From positions 1 through 20,697 of the IMG/VR virus record IMGVR_UViG_3300021963_004528: a stretch of 20,697 nt of DNA; one strand, written 5' to 3'. This stretch comes from a virus. Both the position numbers and the translations under genes were made by a program. Under the pieces are notes generated by a model, which saw only the letters and a program-made list of their open reading frames with translations, was not told the origin of the DNA and ran no database searches. Below are positions 2 to 17,095 of this stretch, in pieces (position 1 is the stretch's first letter; each line of letters begins with the position of its first letter).

Positions 2-3000
2 GATTATCTTCCTGTATATACTGGTAATGTAAATGCAAATTATTTTATTGGAAATGGTAGTACATTAACTTATGTAACAGGTGGAAATGTTTCTGGTAAT
101 GTCACAAGTGCCATACAGAGTCACTATGCAAACATTGCTAACTCAGTTATTGGTAGCAATGTTAGTGGGCAAGTCGGTAATGCATTGGTAGCAGGTACTG
201 TATATACAAATGCACAACCAAATATCACTTCAGTTGGTACATTAGCAGGACTTACAGGTACAGGTATATTCAATCTTACTGGCACAAGTAATGTAGCATT
301 GGGTGCTGTGGGCAACGTACATATTACTGGCGGTACATCAGGGTACGTACTAAGTACCGACGGATCAGGTGCATTAAGTTGGGTAGCACAATCAGGTGGG
401 GGTGGAAGTTATGGAAATAGTAATGTTGCTGATTACTTACCTACATACACCGGTAATATCAGTGCTAACTATGTAATTAGTAATTATTTTAGTGGCAATG
501 GTAGTTTATTGACTTATGTTACAGGTGGGAATATAAATGGTAATGTAACAAGTGCAATACAAAGTCACTACGCAAACATATCAAATTCTGTAGCAGGAAG
601 TAATGTATCAGGTCAAGTAGGTAATGCATTGGTAGCTGGTACAGTATACACAAATGCTCAACCAAACATCACTAGTATCGGCACACTAACAAGTTTAAAT
701 GTAAGTGGTGACGCTACTGTAACTGGAAACTTCACAGTAGGTGGAAATACTACATATATTAACGTAGAAACATTTAGAGTTGAAGATCCATTAATTGAAT
801 TAGGCGGCGGAGTAAATGGGGCTCCGTTAACTACTAATGACGGAAAAGATCGCGGTTCAATATTACATTATTACACAACCGGTGTTGTTGATGCGTTTAT
901 GGGTTGGGATAACTCTAATGGTGAATTTGCATTTGGTAGTAATGTCTCTGTCTCAAGTGAAGTAGTAACATTTAATACTTTTGGTAATATTCGTGCTAAT
1001 AATTTCTTAGGTACTGCAACAACAGCAGGCACTGTTACCACTAATGCACAACCAAACATCACTTCTGTCGGAACATTATCAAGTTTAACAGTAACAGCAA
1101 ATATTTCTAGTGGAAATGCTAATTTAGGTAATCTAGCTACTGCAAGTTATTTTAGTGGTAATGGTATATTCATCTCTAACATTGCCGGAGCAAATGTTTC
1201 AGGTACTGTAGCCAATGCAACTTATGCAACAAGTGCGGGTAGTGCAACTACAGCCGGCACTGTTACCACTAATGCACAACCAAACATCACTTCTGTCGGA
1301 ACATTATCAGGATTAACTGTAAGTAATGCAACAGGTGTTGTTGATTTTACTACTACTGCTAACGTGACGTTAGGTGCAGTTGCAAACTTACATATATCAG
1401 GTGGTACGGACGGGTATGTATTAAAAACTAATGGGTCTGGCACATTAACATGGGTAGCACAATCCGGCGGAGGTGGCGGAACACCCGGAGGAAGTAATAC
1501 TCAAGTTCAATTTAATGATAACGGTAGCTTTGGTGGAAATTCGGCATTTACGTTTGATAAAACTACCGGTAACGTAGTTATGACTGGCAATTTAATTACT
1601 GGATCAGGTACAGGTGGAAATATCAGCGGATTGAATTATGTGATTGCTAACTATTTTACTGGCACATTAACAACCGCAATTCAATCAAACATCACATCAG
1701 TTGGTACATTAAGTAGCCTAACTGTAACCGGTAATATTACATCAGGTAATGCTAGTTTAGGTAATTTGGTAACTGCTACTTATCTAGGCGGGACACTAAC
1801 AACAGGTGCCCAACCCAATATTACCAGTGTTGGGTCCCTAGGTAGTTTAACAGTTACTGGATTAATTACTAACACAGGTACTGGGATTAAAACATCAAAC
1901 ATACAAGATAGCAGTGGAACTATTACTATTGTTACCGGTTACAATAGTGTATCAGGTGATGTAGGTGTATACGGAAATGTGAGAGTTGGTACCAGTGGTA
2001 CTGGATTCTTTGTTGGTAATGGTATCTACATCTCTAACATTGCCGGTGCTAACGTAAGTGGACAAGTTGGTAATGCATTGGTAGCGGGCACAGTCTATAC
2101 AAATGCACAGCCTAATATAACAAGTGTTGGTACATTGGTAAATACAACATTAGGAAGTGCTAATAGCTTAACAGGTGGTAATCTTGTAAGTGCAACATAT
2201 TTAACTGGTACATTAACAACAGCCGCGCAGCCAAATATTACATCAACCGGTACATTAAGTAGTTTAACTGTTACGGCTAATGGCAATATCACAATGAGTG
2301 GTACATTATCACAAATAAGTGGTGCTAACTTAATTAGTGGATCATATTTGACAGGTACTTTAACAACGGCTGCACAGCCTAATATCACATCAGTTGGTAC
2401 TTTAACAACTTTAACAGCAAGCGGCACTGTTGCCGGTCTATATTTACAAGCAACCAATAGTATTGGCGATGAAGGTGGTGAGATTCTTCTTGCTAAGGCA
2501 GTAAGCAATACAACATTATCTGGTACTGGTGTAACAATTGATGTATTCCAAAACAAACTTCGTTTCTTTGAACAAGGTGGTAGTGCCCGTGGTGCATACA
2601 TTGATATTTCAGCCGCAAGTGCAGGAGTAGGTAGTAATTTACTTGCAGGTGGGGGCGGTGGTGGTTCACCCGGCGGATTGGATACGTATGTACAATTCAA
2701 TGATAGTAGTAGTTTTGGTGGTAATAGTCAATTTACTTATAACAAAACAACTAATTTATTAACAGTAGGAAATATAGCAGGTACACTTACAACGGCTGCT
2801 CAACCAAATATTACATCAGTTGGTACTCTAACAACTTTAACCAGCGGTACACATACTGTATCTTTAAATGCCAATATCTCAATGAGCGGATCATTATCTC
2901 AAATAAGTGGTGCTAACTTAGTAAGTGCTAATTTTGTAACTACTGCTGCTAATGGCAATATCTTAATGAGCGGTACTCTATCTCAAATAAGTGGTGCTAA

Positions 3001-3751
3001 TCTAATAAGTGGAACATATCTAACTGGCACACTAACAACTGCGGCTCAACCAAACATCACTTCTGTCGGAACATTATCAGGATTAACTGTAAGTAATGCA
3101 ACAGGTGTTGTTGATTTTACTACTACTGCTAACGTGACGTTAGGTGCAGTTGCAAACTTACATATATCAGGTGGTACATCTGGATACGTTCTTCAGACAG
3201 ACGGGTCAGGCACACTGAGTTGGGTAGCACAATCTGGTGGAGGTGGAGGTGGTTCGCCCGGCGGATTAGATACATATGTACAGTTTAATGACGGTGGCAC
3301 TACTTTTGGCGGTAATGCTCAACTTACTTATAACAAGACAACTAATTTATTGTCTGTGGGTGGAAATTTAACAGTGTCTGGCTGGGCTACTTTACAAGAG
3401 TCAACCGATCTATTAACTACTAAAACAGGTGCTACTGGAAGTGTGACGCATGATTTAAGTACAGGACTTGTATTTTATCATACAAGCATTTCTGCAAGTT
3501 TTACTGCCGCATTTACTAATGTACCAACAACCAATGACAGGACTATTGTTGTTGTATTATTTTTAATACAAGGTGCGACATCATATATAGCAAGTGGCGT
3601 AACTATTAACAGTGGTAGCGCAGAAACAATACAATGGGTTAACGGCATAACACCAATTGGTAATATAAATAAAACAGATGTAATATCATTTACACTAATA
3701 CGCACAGGAAGTGCATGGACAGTTTTAGGTCAATTAGGAACATACGGATAA
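2..3751 (+). CDS. Repeat-built phage tail fibre/adhesin (5' truncated)
   Basis: The reading frame is already open at base 2, so the start lies outside the window; an internal ATG at 185 is not the real start because the repeat pattern continues upstream of it. The protein is a chain of beta-rich repeats: at least eleven copies of a GTxTTNAQPNITSVGTL-like unit, Gly/Ser/Asn/Thr-rich linkers, several copies of a unit ending GYVLxTDGSGxLxW, and units of the form VQFNDxxxFGGNxxxTYNKTTN after poly-Gly spacers. Such modules are known from phage fibre and virion surface proteins. A distinct domain (around 770-1010) carries DPLIELGGGVNG and FMGWDNSNGEFAFG, like structural proteins of marine T4-like phages. 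The last ~110 residues form a C-terminal domain ending WTVLGQLGTYG, shared with the fibre at 4986. Role in host adhesion is inferred. Confidence 0.82.
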   Translation, partial: DYLPVYTGNVNANYFIGNGSTLTYVTGGNVSGNVTSAIQSHYANIANSVIGSNVSGQVGNALVAGTVYTNAQPNITSVGTLAGLTGTGIFNLTGTSNVALGAVGNVHITGGTSGYVLSTDGSGALSWVAQSGGGGSYGNSNVADYLPTYTGNISANYVISNYFSGNGSLLTYVTGGNINGNVTSAIQSHYANISNSVAGSNVSGQVGNALVAGTVYTNAQPNITSIGTLTSLNVSGDATVTGNFTVGGNTTYINVETFRVEDPLIELGGGVNGAPLTTNDGKDRGSILHYYTTGVVDAFMGWDNSNGEFAFGSNVSVSSEVVTFNTFGNIRANNFLGTATTAGTVTTNAQPNITSVGTLSSLTVTANISSGNANLGNLATASYFSGNGIFISNIAGANVSGTVANATYATSAGSATTAGTVTTNAQPNITSVGTLSGLTVSNATGVVDFTTTANVTLGAVANLHISGGTDGYVLKTNGSGTLTWVAQSGGGGGTPGGSNTQVQFNDNGSFGGNSAFTFDKTTGNVVMTGNLITGSGTGGNISGLNYVIANYFTGTLTTAIQSNITSVGTLSSLTVTGNITSGNASLGNLVTATYLGGTLTTGAQPNITSVGSLGSLTVTGLITNTGTGIKTSNIQDSSGTITIVTGYNSVSGDVGVYGNVRVGTSGTGFFVGNGIYISNIAGANVSGQVGNALVAGTVYTNAQPNITSVGTLVNTTLGSANSLTGGNLVSATYLTGTLTTAAQPNITSTGTLSSLTVTANGNITMSGTLSQISGANLISGSYLTGTLTTAAQPNITSVGTLTTLTASGTVAGLYLQATNSIGDEGGEILLAKAVSNTTLSGTGVTIDVFQNKLRFFEQGGSARGAYIDISAASAGVGSNLLAGGGGGGSPGGLDTYVQFNDSSSFGGNSQFTYNKTTNLLTVGNIAGTLTTAAQPNITSVGTLTTLTSGTHTVSLNANISMSGSLSQISGANLVSANFVTTAANGNILMSGTLSQISGANLISGTYLTGTLTTAAQPNITSVGTLSGLTVSNATGVVDFTTTANVTLGAVANLHISGGTSGYVLQTDGSGTLSWVAQSGGGGGGSPGGLDTYVQFNDGGTTFGGNAQLTYNKTTNLLSVGGNLTVSGWATLQESTDLLTTKTGATGSVTHDLSTGLVFYHTSISASFTAAFTNVPTTNDRTIVVVLFLIQGATSYIASGVTINSGSAETIQWVNGITPIGNINKTDVISFTLIRTGSAWTVLGQLGTYG
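1277..1407 (+). repeat. 131-bp exact direct repeat, copy 1
   Basis: Read by eye, this stretch is identical base for base to 3047-3177, in the same frame of the same fibre gene. It encodes a QPNITSVGTL unit followed by a beta-rich unit ending HISGGT. Neighbouring protein repeats are similar but diverged at synonymous sites, so complete identity suggests recent duplication or gene conversion. Confidence 0.9.
3047..3177 (+). repeat. 131-bp exact direct repeat, copy 2
   Basis: Second copy of the exact repeat at 1277-1407, about 1.77 kb apart. Sequence on both sides diverges at once at the DNA level, although the protein repeat continues. Homologous exchange between the copies would delete or duplicate about 590 codons in frame. 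Confidence 0.9.
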
Positions 3752-4985: not shown

Positions 4986-7217
4986 ATGTCAGTAACCTAT
5001 TTAGAACCCTTTGGAGTGAATACTAGTGCAAATTACACATTTGCAAATGTATTGGTAACTGCAAATATAACCAATAACGGTAATGTCAATTTTATCGGTG
5101 CTAGTAATGTAAGTTTGGGTTCCAATACAACTGTGCGTATTACTGGAGGCTCAAGCGGCGGAGTTTTAACAACCAACGGATCCGGTGGTTTAACTTGGAG
5201 CACTCAGGTAGCCAATGCATTAGTAGCGGGTACTGTATACACAAATGCACAACCAAACATTACAAGTGTTGGTACTTTAGTTAACACAACATTGGGTAGT
5301 TCAAATAGCTTTACAGGTGGCAACTTAGTAAGTGCTACTTACTTGACTGGTACACTAACAACTGCGGCGCAACCAAATATTACATCATTGGGTACTATAG
5401 CAGGACTTACTGGTACAGGAGTATTTAATCTCATTGGAACTAGCAATGTTGCATTAGGTGCAGTAGGTAATGTTCATATAACCGGCGGAACGTCAGGACA
5501 ATTATTAAGCACAGACGGTTCAGGTGGATTAACTTGGTCTACTATAAATTCTAGTGGAATAAGTAACGGCACTAGTAATGTAAATATTGCTACATCAGGT
5601 GGAAATGTAACGGTGGGGGTAGGTGGTACCGCAGGTGTAATTACAGTTACTGCAACCGGTGCAAATATTAGTGGATATTTAAATACAGGTACAGGTAACA
5701 TCACATCAGGTAATGCTAGTTTAGGTAACTTGGCAAGTGCTACTTATCTAACTGGTACATTAACAACTGCGGCGCAACCAAATATTACATCAGTTGGAAC
5801 ATTAATCAATACAACACTAGGAAGTGCAAATAGCTTTACAGGTGGAAACTTAGTAAGTGCTACTTACTTAACAGGTACAGTAACAACTGCGGCGCAACCA
5901 AATATTACATCAGTTGGAACATTAGCAACAGTAACGCATGCGGCTAATGCCAATATTATAATGAGTGGATCACTATCACAGATAAGCGGTCCTAACTTAG
6001 TAAGTGCTAATTATGTAACTACTACGGCTAATGGCAATATCTTAATGAGTGGCACCCTATCGCAGATAACAGGTGCTAATTTAATAAGTGGAACATATCT
6101 AACCGGTACATTAACAACTGCGGCTCAACCAAACATTACAAGTCTCGGTACATTAATTAATACATTAATGGGTTCAAGTAACTCATTGAGTGGTGGTAAT
6201 TTAGTGAGTGCTACTTACTTGACTGGTACATTAACAACTGCGGCTCAAGGTAATATTACAAGTGTAGGTACAATGGCATCTATAACATTGGCTGCAAATG
6301 CCAATGTTACAATGAGTGGATCATTATCTCAAATAAGTGGTCCTAATTTAGTAAGTGCTAATTATGTAACTACTACAGCTAATGGCAATATCACGATGAG
6401 TGGCACTTTATCACAGATAAGTGGTGCTAATTTAATAAGTGGTACATATTTGACTGGTACATTAACAACAGCCGCACAACCAAACATAACATCAGTCGGT
6501 ACATTGGTAAGTTTAGGTGTTACTGGTACTACTACTTCTGGTAATTTTGCAACAGCCGGTAATATAACTGCTAGTTTCTTAGTAAGTAACGTAGCAACAG
6601 GAACTGCACCATTTACGGTCACAAGTACAACACGTGTTGCTAATTTAAACGTTGCTTATGCAAACGTGTCAGATTATAGCGCAGTAAGTACTGCTAGTAC
6701 AGGTAATTACTATATTAATATGGTTAATGGCTTGACCGGGAATGTACAAGAATATGCTAACGCTTCATTAATAGCAAATGCGACATCAGGTACATTCTAT
6801 TCAAATAATGCAGCATTGACAAATAATTTATATACAAAATATCTAACAGTATCTAGTATTTCGCAAGAATCGTTTAGCACAATCACTAGTGCTACTGGCA
6901 TTGTAGTGCATAACGTATCAAATGGACCTACATTCTACCATACCACTCCATCTGCTAACTTTACGCCAAACTTCACTAACGTCACAGTTACAGCAAACAC
7001 TACCACTGTTGTGAGTTTAATAATAGTTCAGGGTGCTACTCCTTATATGCCGACTGCTACGGCAAACATTCAAATTGAGGGTGCAAATAATACTATTAAT
7101 TGGTTATACGGTATTGCGCCCACTGGCACTACAAGTAAAATTGATGTTGTAAACTTCAGCTTAGTTAGAACTTCAAGTGCCTGGACAGTACTAGGTCAAG
7201 CAGCAACGTTTGGATAA
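4986..7217 (+). CDS. Second repeat-built phage tail fibre/adhesin
   Basis: A 743-residue paralogue of the fibre ending at 3751. It has a complete N-terminus (MSVTYLEPFGVNTS) and a clear Shine-Dalgarno (AAGGA) ten bases before the ATG. Seven GTLTTAAQPNITSVGTL-like units alternate with units of the form ANGNILMSGTLSQISGANLISGTYL. The middle has one GGTSGQLLSTDGSGGLTW unit. The last ~110 residues (FYHTTPSANFTPNFTNV through WTVLGQAATFG) match the end of the first fibre, so the two probably share an attachment, trimerisation or receptor-tip domain. No peptidase S74 chaperone signature was recognised. Function as a virion fibre is inferred from composition and neighbours. Confidence 0.82.
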   Translation: MSVTYLEPFGVNTSANYTFANVLVTANITNNGNVNFIGASNVSLGSNTTVRITGGSSGGVLTTNGSGGLTWSTQVANALVAGTVYTNAQPNITSVGTLVNTTLGSSNSFTGGNLVSATYLTGTLTTAAQPNITSLGTIAGLTGTGVFNLIGTSNVALGAVGNVHITGGTSGQLLSTDGSGGLTWSTINSSGISNGTSNVNIATSGGNVTVGVGGTAGVITVTATGANISGYLNTGTGNITSGNASLGNLASATYLTGTLTTAAQPNITSVGTLINTTLGSANSFTGGNLVSATYLTGTVTTAAQPNITSVGTLATVTHAANANIIMSGSLSQISGPNLVSANYVTTTANGNILMSGTLSQITGANLISGTYLTGTLTTAAQPNITSLGTLINTLMGSSNSLSGGNLVSATYLTGTLTTAAQGNITSVGTMASITLAANANVTMSGSLSQISGPNLVSANYVTTTANGNITMSGTLSQISGANLISGTYLTGTLTTAAQPNITSVGTLVSLGVTGTTTSGNFATAGNITASFLVSNVATGTAPFTVTSTTRVANLNVAYANVSDYSAVSTASTGNYYINMVNGLTGNVQEYANASLIANATSGTFYSNNAALTNNLYTKYLTVSSISQESFSTITSATGIVVHNVSNGPTFYHTTPSANFTPNFTNVTVTANTTTVVSLIIVQGATPYMPTATANIQIEGANNTINWLYGIAPTGTTSKIDVVNFSLVRTSSAWTVLGQAATFG

Positions 7218-9240: not shown

Positions 9241-9481
9241 ACGTTTAACTGTTATACCAGCTGACTCCACTGTATATAGAGATCAGGGCGTATATGAGTG
9301 TGATTTGTCGCAAGCTGGAATTCCAAATAATGTTCATGCATTACAATGGAATGACGGAATAGGTCAAATAGAATTAATTACTACTGATCCCAACATTCAT
9401 ATTACAGAACTACCTGAATGGGCATTAAAATGTATTGATGTATGGGAACAAGAACATATTAATGCACAAAACTTAACATGA
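9230..9481 (+). CDS. Small tail-adjacent phage protein, function unknown
   Basis: An 83-residue protein beginning MESKRLTVIPADSTVYRD and containing VHALQWNDGIGQIEL and LPEWALKCIDVWEQE. The VHALQW...G.IE...LPxWA pattern is one I associate with small proteins encoded beside phage fibre genes; no biochemical role is known to me. The start lies inside the end of the previous gene and the stop overlaps the next start as ATGA, so expression is probably coupled. Confidence 0.7.
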   Translation: MESKRLTVIPADSTVYRDQGVYECDLSQAGIPNNVHALQWNDGIGQIELITTDPNIHITELPEWALKCIDVWEQEHINAQNLT

Positions 9482-10635
9482 TTAATAGTGACTTTAAAGA
9501 AAACAATTATCTATACATTCCAAATTTTATAGATAGTGATGTTGCTAAAGAATTAGCGATTGAATTTAAACAAGCCGCGATAGAAGAAAATTGGGATGGG
9601 GACGGACAAGCTCCTAACTCATATTCCAAATACAATTTTATTAGCTTCTTAGAATTACTATGTGAAAAAACACCACAAGTTAGTAATTTTTTAGGCGAAA
9701 AAGTTTTGCCCACATATACTTATGCTAGAGTATATAAAGAGGGAAGCACTTTGACACGGCACATAGACAGACCGGCATGTGAGATTAGTTTAACAATACA
9801 CTTAGATGGTGATGCAGATTGGCCTATTTTCATTCAAAAACCAAATGGAGAAGAAGTAGCATTGAATCTAAGATCAGGTGATGCTATGATGTATTTAGGA
9901 TGTGAGGCTGATCATTGGCGTGAACAATTTGAGGGAAAAGAATATGTGCAAGTATTTCTTCACTATGTAAAAAGTAGAGGCAAGAATAGTTTTGCATATT
10001 TTGATAAGACTAAAGAAAAACCCATAGACAAGAAATTAGTAGATATTCCTAAAAATGAATTGAAACCAAATATGCCTAAAAACATAAATGATTATATTGT
10101 TGAATTTGAAAATATATTATATGATGATTTGATCGATGCAATTTTTAGAGAATATGAAAATGCTGACGATTGGCATGATAGTCTTGTTGGGCCTGGGATA
10201 GTAGATAAAAATATTAGAAATGTAAGTACTATTGGCCTATCATTTGAGGCATGTATAAACAAGAATCCAGCAATTAGAAAACTTATTGACACTGAACTAT
10301 TCAACTGTGCAGGAGAAGCAATTAGAAAATATAATGAATTATTTCCTTTTGCTCAGATAGAAACAGACTCAGGGTATGAATTACTTAGATATAACCCTGA
10401 TCAATTTTACATTCAACATACTGATTCATTTAAAGCAAGGCCGAGGGCTGTAAGTTGCAGTTTTATGTTGAATGATGATTATGAGGGCGGTGAATTTGCA
10501 TTCTTTAATAGAGAACTAAAATTCAAACCAAAACGAGGATCAGTTATAATGTTCCCGTCTAACTTCATGTACCCGCACGAAATTATGCCAGTAACTAAAG
10601 GCACACGATATAGTATTATAACCTGGTTTATTTAA
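9478..10635 (+). CDS. Tandem two-domain 2OG-Fe(II) oxygenase (prolyl hydroxylase-like)
   Basis: A 385-residue protein with two non-haem iron oxygenase domains. Domain 1 (about 8-165) has HxD at H95/D97 and a distal His at H146. Domain 2 (about 205-385) has H314/D316, distal H367 in YPHEIM, and R377 in GTRYSI as the probable 2-oxoglutarate anchor, the prolyl-4-hydroxylase-like arrangement. Both metal triads look intact. Such enzymes couple 2-oxoglutarate decarboxylation to hydroxylation of proteins, nucleic acids or small molecules. 2OG oxygenases are frequent beside fibre genes in marine T4-like phages; the substrate here is unknown, and a virion protein or a host surface component is only a guess. 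Start overlaps the previous stop (ATGA). Confidence 0.85.
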   Translation: MINSDFKENNYLYIPNFIDSDVAKELAIEFKQAAIEENWDGDGQAPNSYSKYNFISFLELLCEKTPQVSNFLGEKVLPTYTYARVYKEGSTLTRHIDRPACEISLTIHLDGDADWPIFIQKPNGEEVALNLRSGDAMMYLGCEADHWREQFEGKEYVQVFLHYVKSRGKNSFAYFDKTKEKPIDKKLVDIPKNELKPNMPKNINDYIVEFENILYDDLIDAIFREYENADDWHDSLVGPGIVDKNIRNVSTIGLSFEACINKNPAIRKLIDTELFNCAGEAIRKYNELFPFAQIETDSGYELLRYNPDQFYIQHTDSFKARPRAVSCSFMLNDDYEGGEFAFFNRELKFKPKRGSVIMFPSNFMYPHEIMPVTKGTRYSIITWFI

Positions 10636-11989: not shown

Positions 11990-12240
11990 GCCATTAACTT
12001 GGCAATCAACAATAATTTTTCTAGATGATCAATGGCTTTGTTGATTGCCATTACTCGTTCATCTATCATATTATTTTTGTGTGTTCTTCTAGCTACCACT
12101 TCTAATTTGCTAAGTTCATCAACCATCTTATCAATGTTCTTCATCATCTTCCAAAGATCAGGGTTGTAGCCGATTGACTTTAATTCTTGTACTAGTTTGC
12201 CCCCAATATCGCTCCAGTCTAGGCTTGAGGTAATCTTCAT
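11986..12240 (-). CDS. Small helical protein, function unknown
   Basis: An 84-residue, charged, mostly helical protein (repeated Lys/Glu/Leu heptad-like pattern in the segment MVDELSKLEVVARR and in DHLEKLLLIAKLMA). No family recognised. Its ATG overlaps the upstream stop (ATGA), so it is probably co-translated with the amidotransferase-like gene. It is the last gene of the leftward unit and its TAG overlaps the TAA of the opposing gene. Confidence 0.65.
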   Translation of the reverse strand: MKITSSLDWSDIGGKLVQELKSIGYNPDLWKMMKNIDKMVDELSKLEVVARRTHKNNMIDERVMAINKAIDHLEKLLLIAKLMA

Positions 12241-12881
12241 TTCTGCATCAACCTATCTACAAAATCTAATAATAACACGTGATGCTCTCCGTTGTGATAT
12301 TTACCACGCATCCAACTGTAGCTATCATACCACTGTGATTCACTTTCAGGATGACAACCTATCAACCCAAGATTGTCTTTAATGATTGCCATTGGATCTC
12401 CGTTCATATAAGTTGCTATAGTTTCAAATTTACTAGAATCACCTATCAAAGCACAACCATCATAGAAAAACATATCATAGGGTTCACTGTCCCACTCAAT
12501 ACTGAGATTCTTTGCATGAGGTCGTCTTGTATCTGTGTTCGGACGCTTTATGTATTGTACAGCACGAACACTGTCTAATATGCCTAAATAGTGCTTATCT
12601 GCCCAATATGCACCCATGCATATGCCCAAATATTTGCCACCATTGTCTACAAAAGACTTAATGCGGCTAGCATTGGTTTTCATTAGATAACTATAGCTTT
12701 CACTATCGCCCAATCCACCGGGAATAGCTATTAAGTCTACATCGTCAAAGAAATTACTCTCTAACTCATGTCGGGTAAAGATTTTGAAATTATAGTATTG
12801 TGATAATGATTTCATAATACCATTACCGCTTTGTACAGAGCATTTTGGATGATGCAAAAACAAAGCGATAGTGGGTTTCAT
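12237..12881 (-). CDS. Class I glutamine amidotransferase-like protein (BPL_N type)
   Basis: A 214-residue flavodoxin-like/class I GATase fold. Visible are the oxyanion region IPGGLGD (53-59), the nucleophile elbow GICMGAY with C88, and GCHPES with H177 and E179, completing a Cys-His-Glu triad. The overall pattern matches the domain found at the N-terminus of eukaryotic biotin-protein ligases (BPL_N), which also occurs alone in bacteria and phages. The substrate is not known; no partner synthetase gene is adjacent, so glutamine hydrolysis for amination is not established. No clear Shine-Dalgarno precedes the ATG. The stop overlaps the next gene by four bases. Confidence 0.78.
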   Translation of the reverse strand: MKPTIALFLHHPKCSVQSGNGIMKSLSQYYNFKIFTRHELESNFFDDVDLIAIPGGLGDSESYSYLMKTNASRIKSFVDNGGKYLGICMGAYWADKHYLGILDSVRAVQYIKRPNTDTRRPHAKNLSIEWDSEPYDMFFYDGCALIGDSSKFETIATYMNGDPMAIIKDNLGLIGCHPESESQWYDSYSWMRGKYHNGEHHVLLLDFVDRLMQK

Positions 12882-12909: not shown

Positions 12910-13131
12910 TCAATTTTTAGTTTTGTTATCAAAGGTCGGGGGAATCTTGTTCAATTCTTCTGGTGTTGCAAATCTACCCGTCTCTGGCATTCCGGGTAAT
13001 GTGAAATTAACAGGTTTCCAATATTTAGAAAACAAATTATTGATGGTTACTATTACGATAGTAATCAATATAATACCTAATCCAAATAGAATAGAACCAA
13101 CTAAGAAATTTGCGGCAGTTTCAATATCCAT
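12910..13131 (-). CDS. Single-pass small membrane protein
   Basis: A 73-residue protein with one strong hydrophobic helix (about residues 8-32, FLVGSILFGLGIILITIVIV), followed by a polar tail containing NFTLPGMPETGRFATPEELNKIPP. A good AAGGA Shine-Dalgarno starts directly after the stop of the upstream glycosyltransferase-like gene. Function is unknown; inner-membrane location is inferred from the helix. Confidence 0.72.
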   Translation of the reverse strand: MDIETAANFLVGSILFGLGIILITIVIVTINNLFSKYWKPVNFTLPGMPETGRFATPEELNKIPPTFDNKTKN

Positions 13132-13143
13132 ATACTTTTCCTT

Positions 13144-13902
13144 TTAAAAATAATAACAACCTTGTCGTGCAAAAAAGCACTCGTTAACATCTAATGCCCT
13201 AGCACTAAAAGTTTCTAATACAGTATTTTTGCCCAGGCCTTGTGCAATACCATAAGTAAATGTCTGATTACCTAAAAAGACTTCACATCCATCTATCACT
13301 TGTGCTAAGTCTAAAAAATCTTTACACTTATAATATGATAGCTTAACATTAAATGTTTTTTCAAAATCTTCATGTTCATTAGGCAAACCAACAAACACTA
13401 CATCATCTAATATCTTATTGTTTTCAATTAGTTCCATCCATGTTGCATTTGCTGTGGGTGAACTACTACGCCATCTTGGGCTTCTTGCAATTACAAATTT
13501 TGCAATACGTTTTGGTTTTGGTACAGTTAGCCAGGGCTTGATCAAATCTTCATCTGTGAATGGAATTTGATGTGTAGTATAAAATGCTTTTAAAAAGTTA
13601 CCAGTAACTGTTCTGTGTATTACGCCCCTAAATTCATCTAAATCAACATCAATGTTTTGATTCTGATAAACCGAAACACTGTTAATATAAGACTGAACTT
13701 CTAGTAGGGGTTTTAGACACTGAAAGTCATTGTCTGATAGTTTATCAACATACTCAGGAGGTACAGGACCATTTTTATAATGTGTTATTACGTTAGGTAT
13801 ATTTCTTAATTTAACATAGAAATCGCCTATGCCCTTTTTGTTTACTACTGACAATGAATAAATCAAGTCACCTAGGTTTCCACTTTGAGAATAACTTAAC
13901 AT
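13144..13902 (-). CDS. GT-B (GT9/heptosyltransferase-like) glycosyltransferase-like protein
   Basis: A 252-residue protein from ATG 13902; a TTG at 13905 is possible but the TGATG stop-start overlap favours the ATG. The N-terminal SGNLGDLIYSLSVV is the glycine loop of heptosyltransferase/ADP-heptose-type GT-B proteins. FVIARSPRWRSS marks the start of a second Rossmann half. FLGNQTFTYGIAQGLGKNTVLE resembles the donor-binding GxxT/S region near the C-terminus. It is shorter than typical heptosyltransferases (about 320-350). It follows an FkbM methyltransferase, suggesting joint glycan modification. Substrate unknown. Confidence 0.72.
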   Translation of the reverse strand: MLSYSQSGNLGDLIYSLSVVNKKGIGDFYVKLRNIPNVITHYKNGPVPPEYVDKLSDNDFQCLKPLLEVQSYINSVSVYQNQNIDVDLDEFRGVIHRTVTGNFLKAFYTTHQIPFTDEDLIKPWLTVPKPKRIAKFVIARSPRWRSSSPTANATWMELIENNKILDDVVFVGLPNEHEDFEKTFNVKLSYYKCKDFLDLAQVIDGCEVFLGNQTFTYGIAQGLGKNTVLETFSARALDVNECFFARQGCYYF

Positions 13903-14702
13903 CAATTTTCTTTGAGAGAGGACAACACAGGATCATCAACATGCAAACTTAATGTATTTTCTTGATTTAGATTCAAGGTTACATAATTATATTTTTTTAG
14001 TGTATCAATTAAGTTCTGCTTATCTGATTTTAAAACTTCTAGTTGAATGATAGGCCGACAACGCTTGATTGTTTTCTTAGCACCTTCTAATACTAATTCT
14101 TCCATACCCTCTACATCTAATTTAAGATAGTCTAGTCTAGGTAAATTTAAAGAATCAATAGTAATAGCTTGCACTTGTTCTTTGTTTGTTAACTGTTGAC
14201 CTACAAACTCGCTGGATTCAGTTTGAATCATTTCAATACTACCAAAGCTAGCAGGTAGTTGATAATCAGGAACCGATATCTCTATAGTCTCTTTTTTATT
14301 ACTAAGGGCATTCCAAAGTACTCTTACGTTGAATAAGTTGTTTATAGTAACATTACCAGCCAGAGCATAGAATATTCTTTCTTGCGCTTCTACTGATATA
14401 ACGTTACCCCAACCATACATCAATCTGCCCATAGTAACTGTATGTACTCCAATATTTGCACCACCATCAAGAAAAATTACACCATCGCCTTTATGTTGCC
14501 GTATTAATGATAATACTTGCATAATCACATTAAGTTCTGGAGCATCAAATACAGAAGATTCTAATAGATTAAATCCTACACCAATGGTGCCGTTATTTAC
14601 TTTATGGTAGTCAAAACGATTTATAATCATTGACCCAACATCCGTAGATGTTAATACGAATGCATTTTTCTTAGGATTACGGATGTTTGGCCAATTAATC
14701 AT
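13902..14702 (-). CDS. FkbM-family SAM-dependent methyltransferase
   Basis: A 266-residue protein with SAM motif FLDGGANIGVHT (77-88), acidic end of strand 2 in VEAQ (104-107), and the FkbM-type LKLDVEGMEELVLEGA (193-208). FkbM enzymes are O-methyltransferases acting on sugars, polyketides or surface glycans. Next to a GT-B gene, methylation of a glycan is the most plausible job, but the acceptor is not visible. The ATG lies two bases after the rubredoxin stop and shows no strong Shine-Dalgarno, so it is probably coupled. The stop overlaps the next ATG (TGATG). Confidence 0.85.
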   Translation of the reverse strand: MINWPNIRNPKKNAFVLTSTDVGSMIINRFDYHKVNNGTIGVGFNLLESSVFDAPELNVIMQVLSLIRQHKGDGVIFLDGGANIGVHTVTMGRLMYGWGNVISVEAQERIFYALAGNVTINNLFNVRVLWNALSNKKETIEISVPDYQLPASFGSIEMIQTESSEFVGQQLTNKEQVQAITIDSLNLPRLDYLKLDVEGMEELVLEGAKKTIKRCRPIIQLEVLKSDKQNLIDTLKKYNYVTLNLNQENTLSLHVDDPVLSSLKEN

Positions 14703-14704
14703 GT

Positions 14705-14839
14705 TTAAATAGTTTCGTATTCATCTTTGCCTACACCGCATTCTGGGCATAGAAAGTCTTGTGGCAAGTCTTCCCACTTACCTTCTGTTTCTTCATCGTG
14801 GACATGTCCACATACTACGCATACGTGATCTGGTTTCAT
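14705..14839 (-). CDS. Rubredoxin
   Basis: A 44-residue one-iron electron carrier. Two Cys pairs, CVVCG (residues 7-11) and CPECG (31-35), form the FeCys4 site. The WEDLPQDFLCPECGVGKDEYE end is the standard rubredoxin C-terminus. It is somewhat shorter than the usual ~52 residues because the loop between the knuckles is reduced. A strong GGGAGG Shine-Dalgarno lies inside the last codons of the rubrerythrin gene, and the start overlaps its stop (ATGA). It therefore probably supplies electrons to that rubrerythrin, which has no rubredoxin domain of its own. Confidence 0.93.
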   Translation of the reverse strand: MKPDHVCVVCGHVHDEETEGKWEDLPQDFLCPECGVGKDEYETI

Positions 14840-15288
14840 TGTAGACCTCCCAATACTTGTTTATAAGCATTTGCATGGCGTTCTTCAACTTTCTTTAGTG
14901 CATTGAAACGCTTTTCTGCCTTTTCAAGAACTGCCTTGAATTGCTCTGCATGTTCTTTTGACTCAGCAATTTGTTCAGACATTTCTTGTTCAACTGCATG
15001 GTTATGTTCCAGTGAGGCCCAACGTTGAAAATCTGGATACATTTCTGTATACTCATAAACCTCACCATCAATTGCTTTCTGTAGGCATTCTTTGGTAGAA
15101 GGCTTACCGATTAACAATTCTAGATGTCCCCATGCATGTTTGATTTCTTGGTCTGCCGTGTGTTCAAAGTGTTTTGCAACATCTTCAAATCCTTCTTCAC
15201 GTGCGATTTTAGCAAAGTAGCGATATTTGATGTGAGCCATTGACTCACCCGCTAATGCGCTTTCTAGGTTTTTTAGTGTTATTGACAT
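14836..15288 (-). CDS. Rubrerythrin (diiron domain only)
   Basis: A 150-residue four-helix-bundle diiron protein. I chose the ATG at 15288 because AAAGGAAACACACA lies directly upstream; an in-frame ATG at 15327 would add a basic stretch foreign to the family. Probable iron ligands are E15 (AGESMA), E48 and H51 (ADQEIKHA), E76 and E79 (DGEVYE), and E135 and H138 (EERH). Classical rubrerythrins reduce hydrogen peroxide with electrons passed through a C-terminal rubredoxin domain. That domain is absent here and encoded separately just downstream. A peroxide-detoxifying role during infection is inferred. The first 44 bases overlap the end of the upstream gene in another frame. Confidence 0.9.
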   Translation of the reverse strand: MSITLKNLESALAGESMAHIKYRYFAKIAREEGFEDVAKHFEHTADQEIKHAWGHLELLIGKPSTKECLQKAIDGEVYEYTEMYPDFQRWASLEHNHAVEQEMSEQIAESKEHAEQFKAVLEKAEKRFNALKKVEERHANAYKQVLGGLQ

Positions 15289-15583
15289 TGTGTGTTTCCT
15301 TTTTAGTCTGTGTCTGTACTTCTTCAAGTACGATATTATTTAGACGTTTGATTTCCTTAATATCTTTATGTGAAGCAATTATACTATAATATACTTTATT
15401 TTCAAACTTAATTGGTAAATCTAAACTGATAGTAAATCTAGGCCCATCAATTTCATTGATGACGCTATCGCCATATATAGTACCTATGAAAGGAATTTTA
15501 TTCCATTTAGCAAAGATTCTAGTACCAAATTCATATTTAGGTTTGTAACGATTGTTTGCAAAATATTCGGAGAGACTGGCCAT
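15245..15583 (-). CDS. Conserved-looking phage protein, function unknown
   Basis: A 112-residue protein: SEYFANNRYKPKYEFGTR at the N-terminus, a beta-rich middle (WNKIPFIGTIYGDSVINE, FTISLDLPIKFENKVY), and a basic C-terminal tail (KKPRKR). No family recognised; the middle could be a small barrel or SH3-like fold. The ATG lies eight bases beyond the terminator hairpin of the upstream gene and has no visible Shine-Dalgarno. Its 3' end overlaps the start of rubrerythrin by 44 bases and contains that gene's ribosome-binding site. Confidence 0.65.
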   Translation of the reverse strand: MASLSEYFANNRYKPKYEFGTRIFAKWNKIPFIGTIYGDSVINEIDGPRFTISLDLPIKFENKVYYSIIASHKDIKEIKRLNNIVLEEVQTQTKKETHNVNNTKKPRKRISG

Positions 15584-15590
15584 GATAAGA

Positions 15591-15610
15591 AAAGGCTCCG
15601 AAGAGCCTTT
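15591..15610 (-). terminator. Rho-independent terminator with UUCG loop
   Basis: A perfect 8-bp stem (AAAGGCTC / GAGCCTTT) closes a UUCG tetraloop on the minus strand and is followed by TCTT, giving a U-rich tail. It lies just after the outer-membrane protein gene. UUCG-capped terminators are typical of T4-like phages. Confidence 0.85.
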
Positions 15611-15628
15611 GAGTTGAGTAGTTACTGA

Positions 15629-16174
15629 TTAGAAACCGAATGTTAGGCCAAGACCATAAGCATTTTCTGAGATTTGCTCATAGCTTTTGCTTGCGTTAAC
15701 ATTAAGTGCAACACCTTTAGTAACAGGAATGCTGTATGTTGCGAATGCTACTGATTGAGTAGGCTTGTATGATTGGTCATTGATACGTGTCTTGACACCA
15801 CCAATTGCTAGACCAGGACCAACTTTAAGTGCGGTAGTTGCACCAACTAGACCATAGTTATATTGTTGACCCATGCCACCGTTCTTGCCCATGTCAAAGC
15901 CTACGCCGACAAAGGGAGTGAACATGCCCATACCTTTTCCAGCAGTTACTTCAACACTACTGAACATACCGGAACCGTCATGGTAGTTAGCAGTACGGCT
16001 TTGTAGACCATATTGAATGCCACTTAGTTCTTTACCGATACGAACATATTGTGCTGTGCTAGTTTGTTTGCTAACTTGGTCTTTAACATAGTCAACATCA
16101 AAACTTGCGTAGTTGGCTGCTGATGCTACAAAACCTGTTAGTGCTAGAATACTAGCTAATGCGATTTTCTTCAT
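15629..16174 (-). CDS. Outer-membrane beta-barrel protein with signal peptide
   Basis: A 181-residue protein with a Sec signal peptide (MKKIALASILALTGFVASA, cleavage after ASA at about residue 19). The mature part consists of alternating amphipathic strands and ends LGLTFGF, with the C-terminal Phe and aromatic pattern of a BAM-recognised beta-signal. Length fits an 8-stranded barrel. It has its own promoter-like sequence, an AAAGGA Shine-Dalgarno and a terminator, so it is expressed as a single gene. A phage could use such a protein to alter the host outer membrane (for example, receptor masking or superinfection exclusion), but that is a guess; a recent host origin is also possible. Confidence 0.78.
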   Translation of the reverse strand: MKKIALASILALTGFVASAANYASFDVDYVKDQVSKQTSTAQYVRIGKELSGIQYGLQSRTANYHDGSGMFSSVEVTAGKGMGMFTPFVGVGFDMGKNGGMGQQYNYGLVGATTALKVGPGLAIGGVKTRINDQSYKPTQSVAFATYSIPVTKGVALNVNASKSYEQISENAYGLGLTFGF

Positions 16175-16200
16175 GTGTGTTTCCTTTAAAAATTAGAATG

Positions 16201-16208
16201 AATTTATA
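16201..16208 (-). promoter_or_regulatory. Possible T4-type late promoter
   Basis: The minus strand reads TATAAATT, one base from the T4 late -10 consensus TATAAATA, about 27 bases upstream of the ATG at 16174. The spacing suits a short 5' leader containing the AAAGGAAACACAC ribosome-binding region. Short AT-rich matches occur by chance in this genome. Confidence 0.35.
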
Positions 16209-16245
16209 TTTAGTGAGTGTGAATAGTGTAAAAACATTTGTTTTA

Positions 16246-16533
16246 TTATTCTTGATCAGGAGATAAGCCATTACTGCGTTTATCACGTACTTTTTCCACA
16301 TCTTGAAATAAACGTTTCTCTTGTGGAGTTAGTGTATCTTTGTGAGTTTTTCTAGGATTGCCACAAAGATAACATTCTGGATTACCACAGTCCATAGCAT
16401 GATGTTTGGCGAACTTATGCGGTTCGTCAACTTTCATACCAGCGGCTTTGGCAATCTTAGTTTGTTTTTTGATGGCGTTCTCATCCTTGAGTAAACGCTT
16501 AGAATGGTTGAATTTATCTTGTTCAGTACTCAT
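16246..16533 (-). CDS. Small basic protein with CxxC motif, function unknown
   Basis: A 95-residue charged protein. The central HHAMDCGNPECYLCGNPRK holds three cysteines (CGNPEC, then CxxC) with adjacent histidines, suggesting a zinc site. The flanks are helical and rich in Lys. I know similar short proteins from phages and betaproteobacteria without assigned role. It follows the tmRNA terminator. No strong Shine-Dalgarno is seen before the ATG; TATAATTG a few bases upstream could be a -10 element for a very short leader. Confidence 0.65.
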   Translation of the reverse strand: MSTEQDKFNHSKRLLKDENAIKKQTKIAKAAGMKVDEPHKFAKHHAMDCGNPECYLCGNPRKTHKDTLTPQEKRLFQDVEKVRDKRSNGLSPDQE

Positions 16534-16571
16534 GCGTCAATTATACATAGGTTTATAGTTAAGTCAAAAGA

Positions 16572-16592
16572 AAAGGGCAACTAGTGCCCTTT
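16572..16592 (-). terminator. Rho-independent terminator after tmRNA
   Basis: An 8-bp stem (AAAGGGCA / TGCCCTTT) with a 5-base loop is followed on the minus strand by TCTTTT. It lies just beyond the coding piece of the tmRNA and probably ends its transcript. Confidence 0.82.
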
Positions 16593-16599
16593 CTGATTT

Positions 16600-16812
16600 T
16601 CTGTTACGAGGTATGTCTTACCCTAAGCAGTGTTTAGGCTGCTAATGCGAACTGTGAGTCGTTTGCTTTTACTTCTTTTGCTTCTGCGACCGAGTAGAGC
16701 GTCTTTCTATACTATGGGTATAGCGACTACACTTTGCCCCCAATCCTACGGCTTTCGCATTGCCGTGCTGTCCACTCTGTTACTCTTTGCCCTGTCGAAA
16801 CTATGCAGGCCC
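16600..16812 (-). ncRNA. ssrA: Permuted tmRNA, coding (tag) piece
   Basis: On the minus strand the piece opens with GGGCCTG then CATAGTTTCGACAGGGC, the conserved tmRNA 5' D-arm region. GGGCCTG (16812-16806) pairs with CAGGTCC (17038-17032) of the acceptor piece, with a G-U at pair 3, the identity element for alanyl-tRNA synthetase. Hairpins ACGGC/GCCGT and CTATAC/GTATAG follow. The tag frame runs from 16687 (GCA preceded by GTC as in E. coli) to TAA at 16634 and reads AEAKEVKANDSQFALAA. CCTAA/TTAGG forms a hairpin over the stop. A 6-base match (ACAGCA here, TGCTGT in the acceptor piece) fits helix 2. The 3' boundary is approximate. Role: ribosome rescue and tagging for proteolysis with SmpB. 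Confidence 0.92.
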
Positions 16813-16825
16813 GTCATAAAGAAAC

Positions 16826-16903
16826 TTAGTCTACGCTTAATGTTGTTAACAACAAGCATAATATTGGAAAAACAATTAATAAAAATTTTGTTAAATTTTC
16901 CAT
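16826..16903 (-). CDS. Tiny hydrophobic ORF in tmRNA intervening segment (25 aa)
   Basis: A 25-codon ORF starting MENLTKFLLIVFP, with a continuous hydrophobic stretch and a Cys (FPILC) in a lipobox-like setting. It starts one base after the stop of the preceding tiny ORF and ends 13 bases before the tmRNA coding piece. The Shine-Dalgarno is weak. It may be real through coupling, or a chance ORF in T-rich sequence. Confidence 0.35.
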   Translation of the reverse strand: MENLTKFLLIVFPILCLLLTTLSVD

Positions 16904-16904
16904 A

Positions 16905-17015
16905 TTACCATAACTCACAGTTTTTTATTTTCTCTTCGTCCAATGTGGTATCACGTGTAAAATAAAATACACCAAACACTAACCAAAATAACAAAAATAA
17001 AACATAACTTATCAT
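16905..17015 (-). CDS. Tiny membrane-protein ORF in tmRNA intervening segment (36 aa)
   Basis: A 36-codon ORF with one strong transmembrane helix (MISYVLFLLFWLVFGVFYF), a positive residue after it (TR) and an acidic/basic tail (LDEEKIKNC). A strong Shine-Dalgarno, AAGGAAG, is well spaced before the ATG. The ATG lies 12 bases after the CCA end of the tmRNA acceptor piece. Function unknown. The ribosome-binding site and the charge asymmetry around the helix argue that it is translated. Confidence 0.6.
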   Translation of the reverse strand: MISYVLFLLFWLVFGVFYFTRDTTLDEEKIKNCELW

Positions 17016-17027
17016 TAAACTTCCTTA

Positions 17028-17095
17028 TGGTGGACCTGGGGGGATTCGCACCCCCGTCCAAAACACTTTTCTCTCGGCTTCATACAGCAATAACT
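17028..17095 (-). ncRNA. ssrA: Permuted tmRNA, acceptor piece
   Basis: On the minus strand the T-arm is GGGGG, TGCGAAT, CCCCC (17055-17039), followed by CAGGTCC, discriminator A and an encoded CCA ending at 17028. TTTTGGAC before the T-arm matches the TTTCGGAC of E. coli tmRNA. Only a T half-molecule is present, so it is not a tRNA. The matching 5' half lies downstream in the transcript (coding piece), which defines a circularly permuted, two-piece tmRNA as in alphaproteobacteria, some cyanobacteria and some betaproteobacteria. TGCTGT (17089-17084) can pair with ACAGCA of the coding piece. The 5' boundary is an estimate. Confidence 0.92.

Follow-up and report, generated by a model that had tools for sequence, protein, structure and literature searches.

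Small protein genes in a phage circularly permuted tmRNA: an intervening sequence that probably acts as an exchangeable slot

Permuted tmRNAs are known from several bacterial lineages, and a general, merged model for them (RF04321) is part of Rfam. Virus-borne examples are also known: an evaluation of 18,146 phage genomes suggested 53 two-piece tmRNAs (PMC9004378, 2022), and phage Melnitz and other aquatic phages carry a permuted tmRNA, as does the virus described here (PMC9004378). A glutamine riboswitch is described with the gene, and the available text of that report mentions no protein gene in the intervening sequence (IVS). The permuted tmRNAs covered by RF04321, RF01849, RF01850 and RF01851 resemble our locus in gene order, tRNA-like domain, encoded CCA, tag frame and the presence of an IVS between the two halves. 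Cases of a second gene nested in a tmRNA gene have been described as well. Group I intron tmRNAs, some with homing endonuclease genes, contain a protein gene inside the tmRNA gene, as here, but there a self-splicing intron interrupts the T-loop of a tmRNA of standard form, whereas our permuted locus has an uninterrupted T-arm and carries its genes in the IVS (PMC11915505). A nominally archaeal permuted tmRNA has a tRNA-Ala within its IVS, again a gene within the slot, but this is one RNA gene in a single instance, whereas the genes reported below encode proteins, fall into at least 25 families and appear to be exchanged (PMC11915505). A further IVS holds a repeat, and the accessible portion of the same paper mentions endonuclease genes only in group I introns (PMC11915505). 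A phage-borne permuted tmRNA is thus not novel on its own. Unlike that of the Rfam permuted tmRNAs, the phage IVS studied here is protein-coding and swapped among close relatives, and this exchangeable coding IVS, with a ribosome-binding site built into its closing stem, is the new feature; searches of open-access PMC, a collection outside which much older tmRNA literature falls, turned up no description of a protein gene lying in a permuted tmRNA's IVS.

The window, meaning the whole stretch of DNA that was analysed, is a 20,697-base virus record in which a permuted tmRNA locus with its terminator occupies positions 17094-16566 of the minus strand. The preliminary description had proposed a phage-borne, circularly permuted two-piece tmRNA, and the proposal is upheld by a match to RF04321 (tmRNA_permuted) at 17089-16634(-), which covers the full model (1-213) with 96.6 bits against a gathering score of 47 (E 5.4e-18, with the whole window as search space). 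The check with Rfam models that it had proposed succeeded with this general model and failed with the older clade-specific families: beta_tmRNA (RF01850) gave a partial match of 40.5 bits, below its threshold of 84, the alphaproteobacterial model RF01849 (threshold 50 bits) had no window match among the matches listed at E 0.01, and the cyano tmRNA model had none among the matches listed. ARAGORN found no tmRNA in the window. The permuted tmRNA is genuine, and as a tmRNA it belongs to a known type.

Its parts, located by the RF04321 match and the sequence, follow the expected order, and here the earlier reading agrees with the DNA throughout. The acceptor half (17028..17094, minus strand) comprises a helix-2 strand, the T-arm with loop TGCGAAT, the acceptor 3' strand and the encoded CCA; as had been noted, it precedes the 5' half on the minus strand, with order, strand and coordinates in agreement. 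This second, coding half (16590..16812, minus strand) contains the acceptor 5' strand GGGCCTG, a D-arm region with GTTTCGAC, the other helix-2 strand and the tag frame. The 7-bp acceptor stem claimed earlier, GGGCCTG (16812-16806) with CAGGTCC (17038-17032) including the G3-U70 pair, is present, as is the helix-2 match of ACAGCA (16771-16766) with TGCTGT (17089-17084). The tag frame (16634..16666, minus strand) is likewise intact and open up to a hydrophobic degradation signal, its translation ending in ANDSQFALAA and a stop, with the start of the tag placed according to the usual tag form; similar tags occur in relatives. The terminator also exists, as a terminator-like hairpin GGGCACTAGTTGCCC followed by a T-run (16566..16589, minus strand, beginning at 16589).

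Where we depart from the preliminary description is the stretch between the halves, which it had treated as empty. This IVS, 215 nt between the CCA and the mature 5' G at 16812 (16813..17027, minus strand), instead holds two protein genes and forms the exchangeable part of the locus, a cargo slot. ORF1 (16905..17015, minus strand; family F2) encodes 36 aa, MISYVLFLLFWLVFGVFYFTRDTTLDEEKIKNCELW, and ORF2 (16826..16903, minus strand; family F4), separated from the stop of ORF1 by 1 nt, encodes 25 aa, MENLTKFLLIVFPILCLLLTTLSVD; each is of membrane type and has a single, strongly hydrophobic segment. The ribosome-binding site AAGGA (17026-17022) begins one base past the encoded CCA, which ends at 17028. 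Because pS exceeds pN (NG86) in comparisons with the homologous IVS of other viral records, both ORFs are read as proteins under purifying selection: for ORF1, pS is 0.51-0.64 and pN 0.10-0.14 against L228 and L105, and 0.48-0.67 and 0.10-0.16 against L309 and L311; for ORF2, pS is 0.32 and pN 0.13 against L228. The assignment of ORF1 draws further on the genomic context of F2, and that of ORF2 on F4-like ORFs found elsewhere.

Relatives were collected by scanning viral contigs for the T-arm/CCA sequence, a search that is blind to the IVS and requires a G55 T-loop; acceptor-stem complementarity was a scan criterion and is not counted as evidence in them. The scan returned at least 120 loci, of which 101 continue into a matching coding half; the IVS of these 101 fall into 78 distinct sequences. 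An automatic coding criterion (a start no more than 40 nt into the IVS, a ribosome-binding site and at least 23 codons) is positive for 19 of the 78, against 1.33 expected from shuffles. Locus L049 passes this criterion and was judged to be a hairpin, and ten IVS that it misses were counted as coding on other evidence (seven of family F6, together with L029, L105 and L111), which gives a final tally of 28/78 distinct IVS, or 35/101 loci, in a sample drawn from the at least 120. Among distinct IVS of at least 90 nt, 26/29 contain such an ORF, the exceptions being L036, L046 and L112. IVS lengths ranged from 20 to 491 nt over all loci collected to that point, and the ORFs reach 151 aa. A second scan, which required a ribosome-binding site and an ATG after the CCA, added 51 stretches with additional families. 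RF04321 scores above threshold in 14 of 15 cargo loci (the exception, L099, has an IVS of 382 nt) and in all 16 loci of a further set; in L123 and L328 the match is limited to the coding-half side. Several relatives pass the RF01850 threshold, and L242, L214 and L338 pass that of RF01849. Pattern-based tag finding is incomplete (56/108 and 31/108), and a locus without a hit should not be read as lacking a tag.

The simplest alternative is that these are ordinary phage permuted tmRNAs in which the IVS is a non-coding spacer and the ORFs arose by chance. As such a reading would have it, some two thirds of the distinct IVS from the blind scan are non-coding, mostly short hairpins. It is nevertheless very improbable in the face of the excess over shuffles, the matches to Pfam, the length of the ORFs and the substitution patterns, with pS well above pN in families F1, F2, F5, F6 and the L214 type. 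Some comparisons carry little signal: several pairs of a Zn-ribbon-like family have pS ~ pN, and in F3 (L105-L042) and F8 there are almost no differences. Separately, seven loci (L049, L095, L052, L117, L121, L016 and L017) have long (76-87 nt), structured non-coding IVS that are near-identical although the loci differ elsewhere, resembling conserved small RNAs housed in the slot.

The cargo itself is diverse. Representatives of 25 families show no mutual match (blastp, E 0.01), and among ten cargo proteins scanned, two exceed the Pfam cutoff (PF09791 and PF03692) and none matches PHROGs at E 0.001. F2 lies directly after an acceptor half in 11/11 loci found, and F1 after one in 13/13, including two whose T-arm falls outside the scan pattern and was confirmed by Rfam. 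The L214-type protein follows an acceptor half in 6/12 loci found (in L337 judged from contig-end sequence alone) and lies elsewhere, with no tmRNA match, in the other 6/12, so some cargo exists as free genes. Family F6, which is PF09791-like, has no start codon in the IVS; its frame runs uninterrupted from an ATG within the acceptor half, the only in-frame start, through T-arm, CCA and IVS, and stops in the coding half in 7/7 loci (L013, L019, L032, L047, L050, L082 and L088). For L013 and L050, pS is 0.57 and pN 0.012 over the IVS part. We considered such an ORF from the acceptor-half ATG as a general feature and rejected it, as the frame ends at varied points outside F6. The predicted fold of F1 (mean pLDDT 65.7) found no PDB match at E 0.001 or better; many of its top PDB rows are acetyltransferases, a hint only at an acetyltransferase-like fold. 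A tblastn search with the F1 cargo and a 1044-aa neighbour against 50,697 phage records gave no match.

What unites coding and non-coding forms is a stem that closes the IVS. The IVS ends pair in a fixed register, nearly always over about 10 bp. In the window, the 5' strand (17018..17027, minus strand), which contains AAGGA, pairs at 10/10 positions with 16826-16817, and by pairing and folding this 3' strand (16817..16826, minus strand) lies over the ribosome-binding site; in the folded window precursor the stem has a pairing probability of 0.94 and the SD is paired at 1.00. Across relatives, the 51 distinct coding IVS form 487/510 stem pairs against 413.7 (sd 6.5; 0/2000 shuffles as high as observed) after re-dealing of their 3' ends, and the 54 non-coding IVS form 498/540 against 374 when re-dealt, both differences being inflated by relatedness. 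Judged by these pairings, the stem is plainly kept when the cargo changes. In most coding IVS the ribosome-binding site of the first cargo ORF sits inside the closing stem, and the SD is consequently paired at 0.95-1.00 in 33/33 folded precursors, as against 0.05-0.86 when the 3' strand is left out. According to these models, folding of the precursor should hide the ribosome-binding site of the cargo. Such masking is not universal: the ribosome-binding site of L120 falls past the closing stem, and the cargo of L029 and L111 begins some 23 nt from the start of the IVS. Most IVS are predicted to retain the stem even once excised, so that processing alone would not free cargo translation. Stop codons of the ORFs gather at two places, either 1 nt ahead of the mature 5' end (8 distinct IVS in one list, 5 in another) or 12-13 nt ahead of it, immediately outside the stem; some cargo ORFs continue into the coding half.

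This architecture bears on a second alternative, in which each half is a transcription unit of its own, ordinary small phage genes happen to lie between them, and no common precursor exists. Small genes abound in phage genomes, and the free-standing L214-type genes in 6/12 loci show that cargo need not sit in a tmRNA. We regard the idea as unlikely, given that the IVS ends pair and covary in coding and non-coding forms, that the IVS is short throughout (20-491 nt) and that ORF stops abut the stem or the mature 5' end.

The exchange of cargo is seen in pairs of close relatives, and our evidence for it rests on named pairs only; a statistic of 94/147 flank-similar pairs with unrelated IVS was set aside because many of these IVS, at 20-50 nt, are unalignable by the search used. 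In the downstream flank, the window matches L123 at 94-95% identity over 13094-14246 and 14398-16586; upstream, identity is 86-90% in three blocks between 17106 and 18519. The two acceptor halves, with the ribosome-binding site, agree at 94% over 101 nt, and the starts of their coding halves, including the 3' stem strand, at 98% over 65 nt; the IVS genes are unrelated, two membrane peptides in the window versus one 122-aa protein in L123. Likewise, L122 is 95.6% like the window over 340 nt downstream and has a different permuted tmRNA with a 29-nt hairpin IVS. In a second group with upstream flanks of 94-97% identity, L031, L066 and L109 have a 66-nt hairpin IVS, L060 and L067 an 84-nt gene and L120 a 152-nt gene; L214, whose upstream flanks are 87-89% like this group, has a 207-nt gene. 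L018 and L088 are 90% identical on both sides with different IVS genes. From their pairings (F2+F4 in the window, F2+F3 in L105, F3 alone in L042, F4-like alone in L087 and L064), the cargo modules themselves are seen to recombine too.

Precise replacement between close relatives is also what selfish elements homing into the tmRNA gene might produce, in the manner of group I intron endonuclease genes. This is extremely improbable for the IVS genes: neither Pfam nor PHROGs revealed a nuclease domain in the ten cargo proteins scanned, most of which are too small, and neither the window, whose T-arm is continuous with no group I intron in the T-loop, nor the tested cargo loci have an intron family match in Rfam.

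Three further observations concern the history of such loci. The window and L123 share the beginning of the coding half and then diverge strongly (window 16763-16690) despite flanks of about 95% identity, so the coding half is itself mosaic. In L309 (1470-2051), F2 and F3-like ORFs follow a relic acceptor half, and a complete permuted tmRNA (1761-2051) whose IVS ORF differs comes immediately downstream; the relic looks like the fossil trace of a tmRNA that has been replaced. In L337 (1005-1226), a second, complete permuted tmRNA lies about 700 nt downstream of the cargo ORF that follows an acceptor half, possibly a case of tandem tmRNA genes.

Position 55 of the T-loop is normally U. The window T-loop, TGCGAAT, has G in its place and departs from the usual U54 U55; the relatives from the blind scan share G55 because the search pattern demanded it. 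A G55 variant, GGGTGCGA (L244-L300), also occurs in tmRNA genes of Saccharibacteria, other Patescibacteria and a few Alphaproteobacteria, those of the Saccharibacteria and other Patescibacteria being mostly of standard form. We do not take G55 as disqualifying, since it is a known kind of natural variation found in bacterial tmRNAs too. The substitution could nonetheless suggest an inactive tmRNA, a decoy or inhibitor of the host tmRNA whose locus would be retained solely as a place for cargo to recombine, and a tag-less phage tmRNA-like RNA that inhibits endogenous tmRNA has been described (PMC11915505). With the acceptor stem and its G3-U70 pair, the model match and the tag frame all intact, ALAA-type tags kept in different relatives, and G55 present in bacteria, we find this quite unlikely.

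Among controls, the IVS inspected in six bacterial loci and in two phages of known host revealed no such gene. RF04321 matches 178/190 Alphaproteobacteria, nearly all matches listed spanning 184-270 nt; in six loci with longer spans, the IVS measures 44-232 nt, and ORFs having both a start codon and a ribosome-binding site never exceed 13 codons. In one betaproteobacterial order, a small control, 4/150 genomes pass RF01850, with spans of 325-345 nt. Stenotrophomonas phage Bhz51 and Xanthomonas phage X1 have non-coding IVS of 56 and 126 nt.

Overall, the evidence from sequence comparison for coding IVS and for cargo swaps is strong, and the explanation we consider probable, with good confidence, is a phage permuted tmRNA whose IVS is an exchangeable slot for small protein genes. 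How such a locus might work can be outlined. The whole would be transcribed as one precursor, with the IVS stem stacked on the acceptor stem, and RNase P together with 3' processing would release the two mature tmRNA pieces. Ribosomes would translate the cargo on nascent or unprocessed RNA while the stem is still open; cargo translation would then compete with tmRNA maturation, and the two would be coupled in this way. The mature tmRNA would tag stalled peptides with ANDSQFALAA, and cargo could be exchanged by homologous recombination in the conserved halves, including both stem strands. In infected cells the RNA may also, as the preliminary description suggested, control ribosome rescue or mimic the gene of the host. 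A bolder version, which we put forward tentatively and think rather doubtful, makes the IVS a translation-gated maturation switch as well as a slot through which phages trade takeover proteins. A ribosome on the cargo ORF would hold the closing stem open and cover the RNase P site, so that maturation would rise when translation initiation fails, and expression of the traded proteins would follow ribosome availability.

For the exchangeable-slot reading, several implications follow. Protein genes would be using a structured RNA gene as their docking slot, where a single sequence doubles as processing stem and ribosome-binding site, and it becomes possible to test directly whether ribosome rescue is linked to the translation of accessory phage proteins. 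Additionally, the slot would be a reservoir of small phage proteins in an easily overlooked place, given that ARAGORN missed the tmRNA and ten cargo proteins had no significant PHROG match.

Finally, a few observations concern the surroundings of the locus. A late promoter was considered and rejected, with TATAAAT upstream of the acceptor half in only 4/144 loci. The window also carries accessory genes for a rubrerythrin (14836-15327), an FkbM methyltransferase (13902-14702), a glutamine-amidotransferase-like protein (12237-12881) and a 2OG-Fe(II) oxygenase (9478-10635). Two long repetitive proteins (2-3751 and 4986-7217) have the repeat TNAQPNITSVGTL in common and, from their sequences, are probably fibre-like surface proteins.
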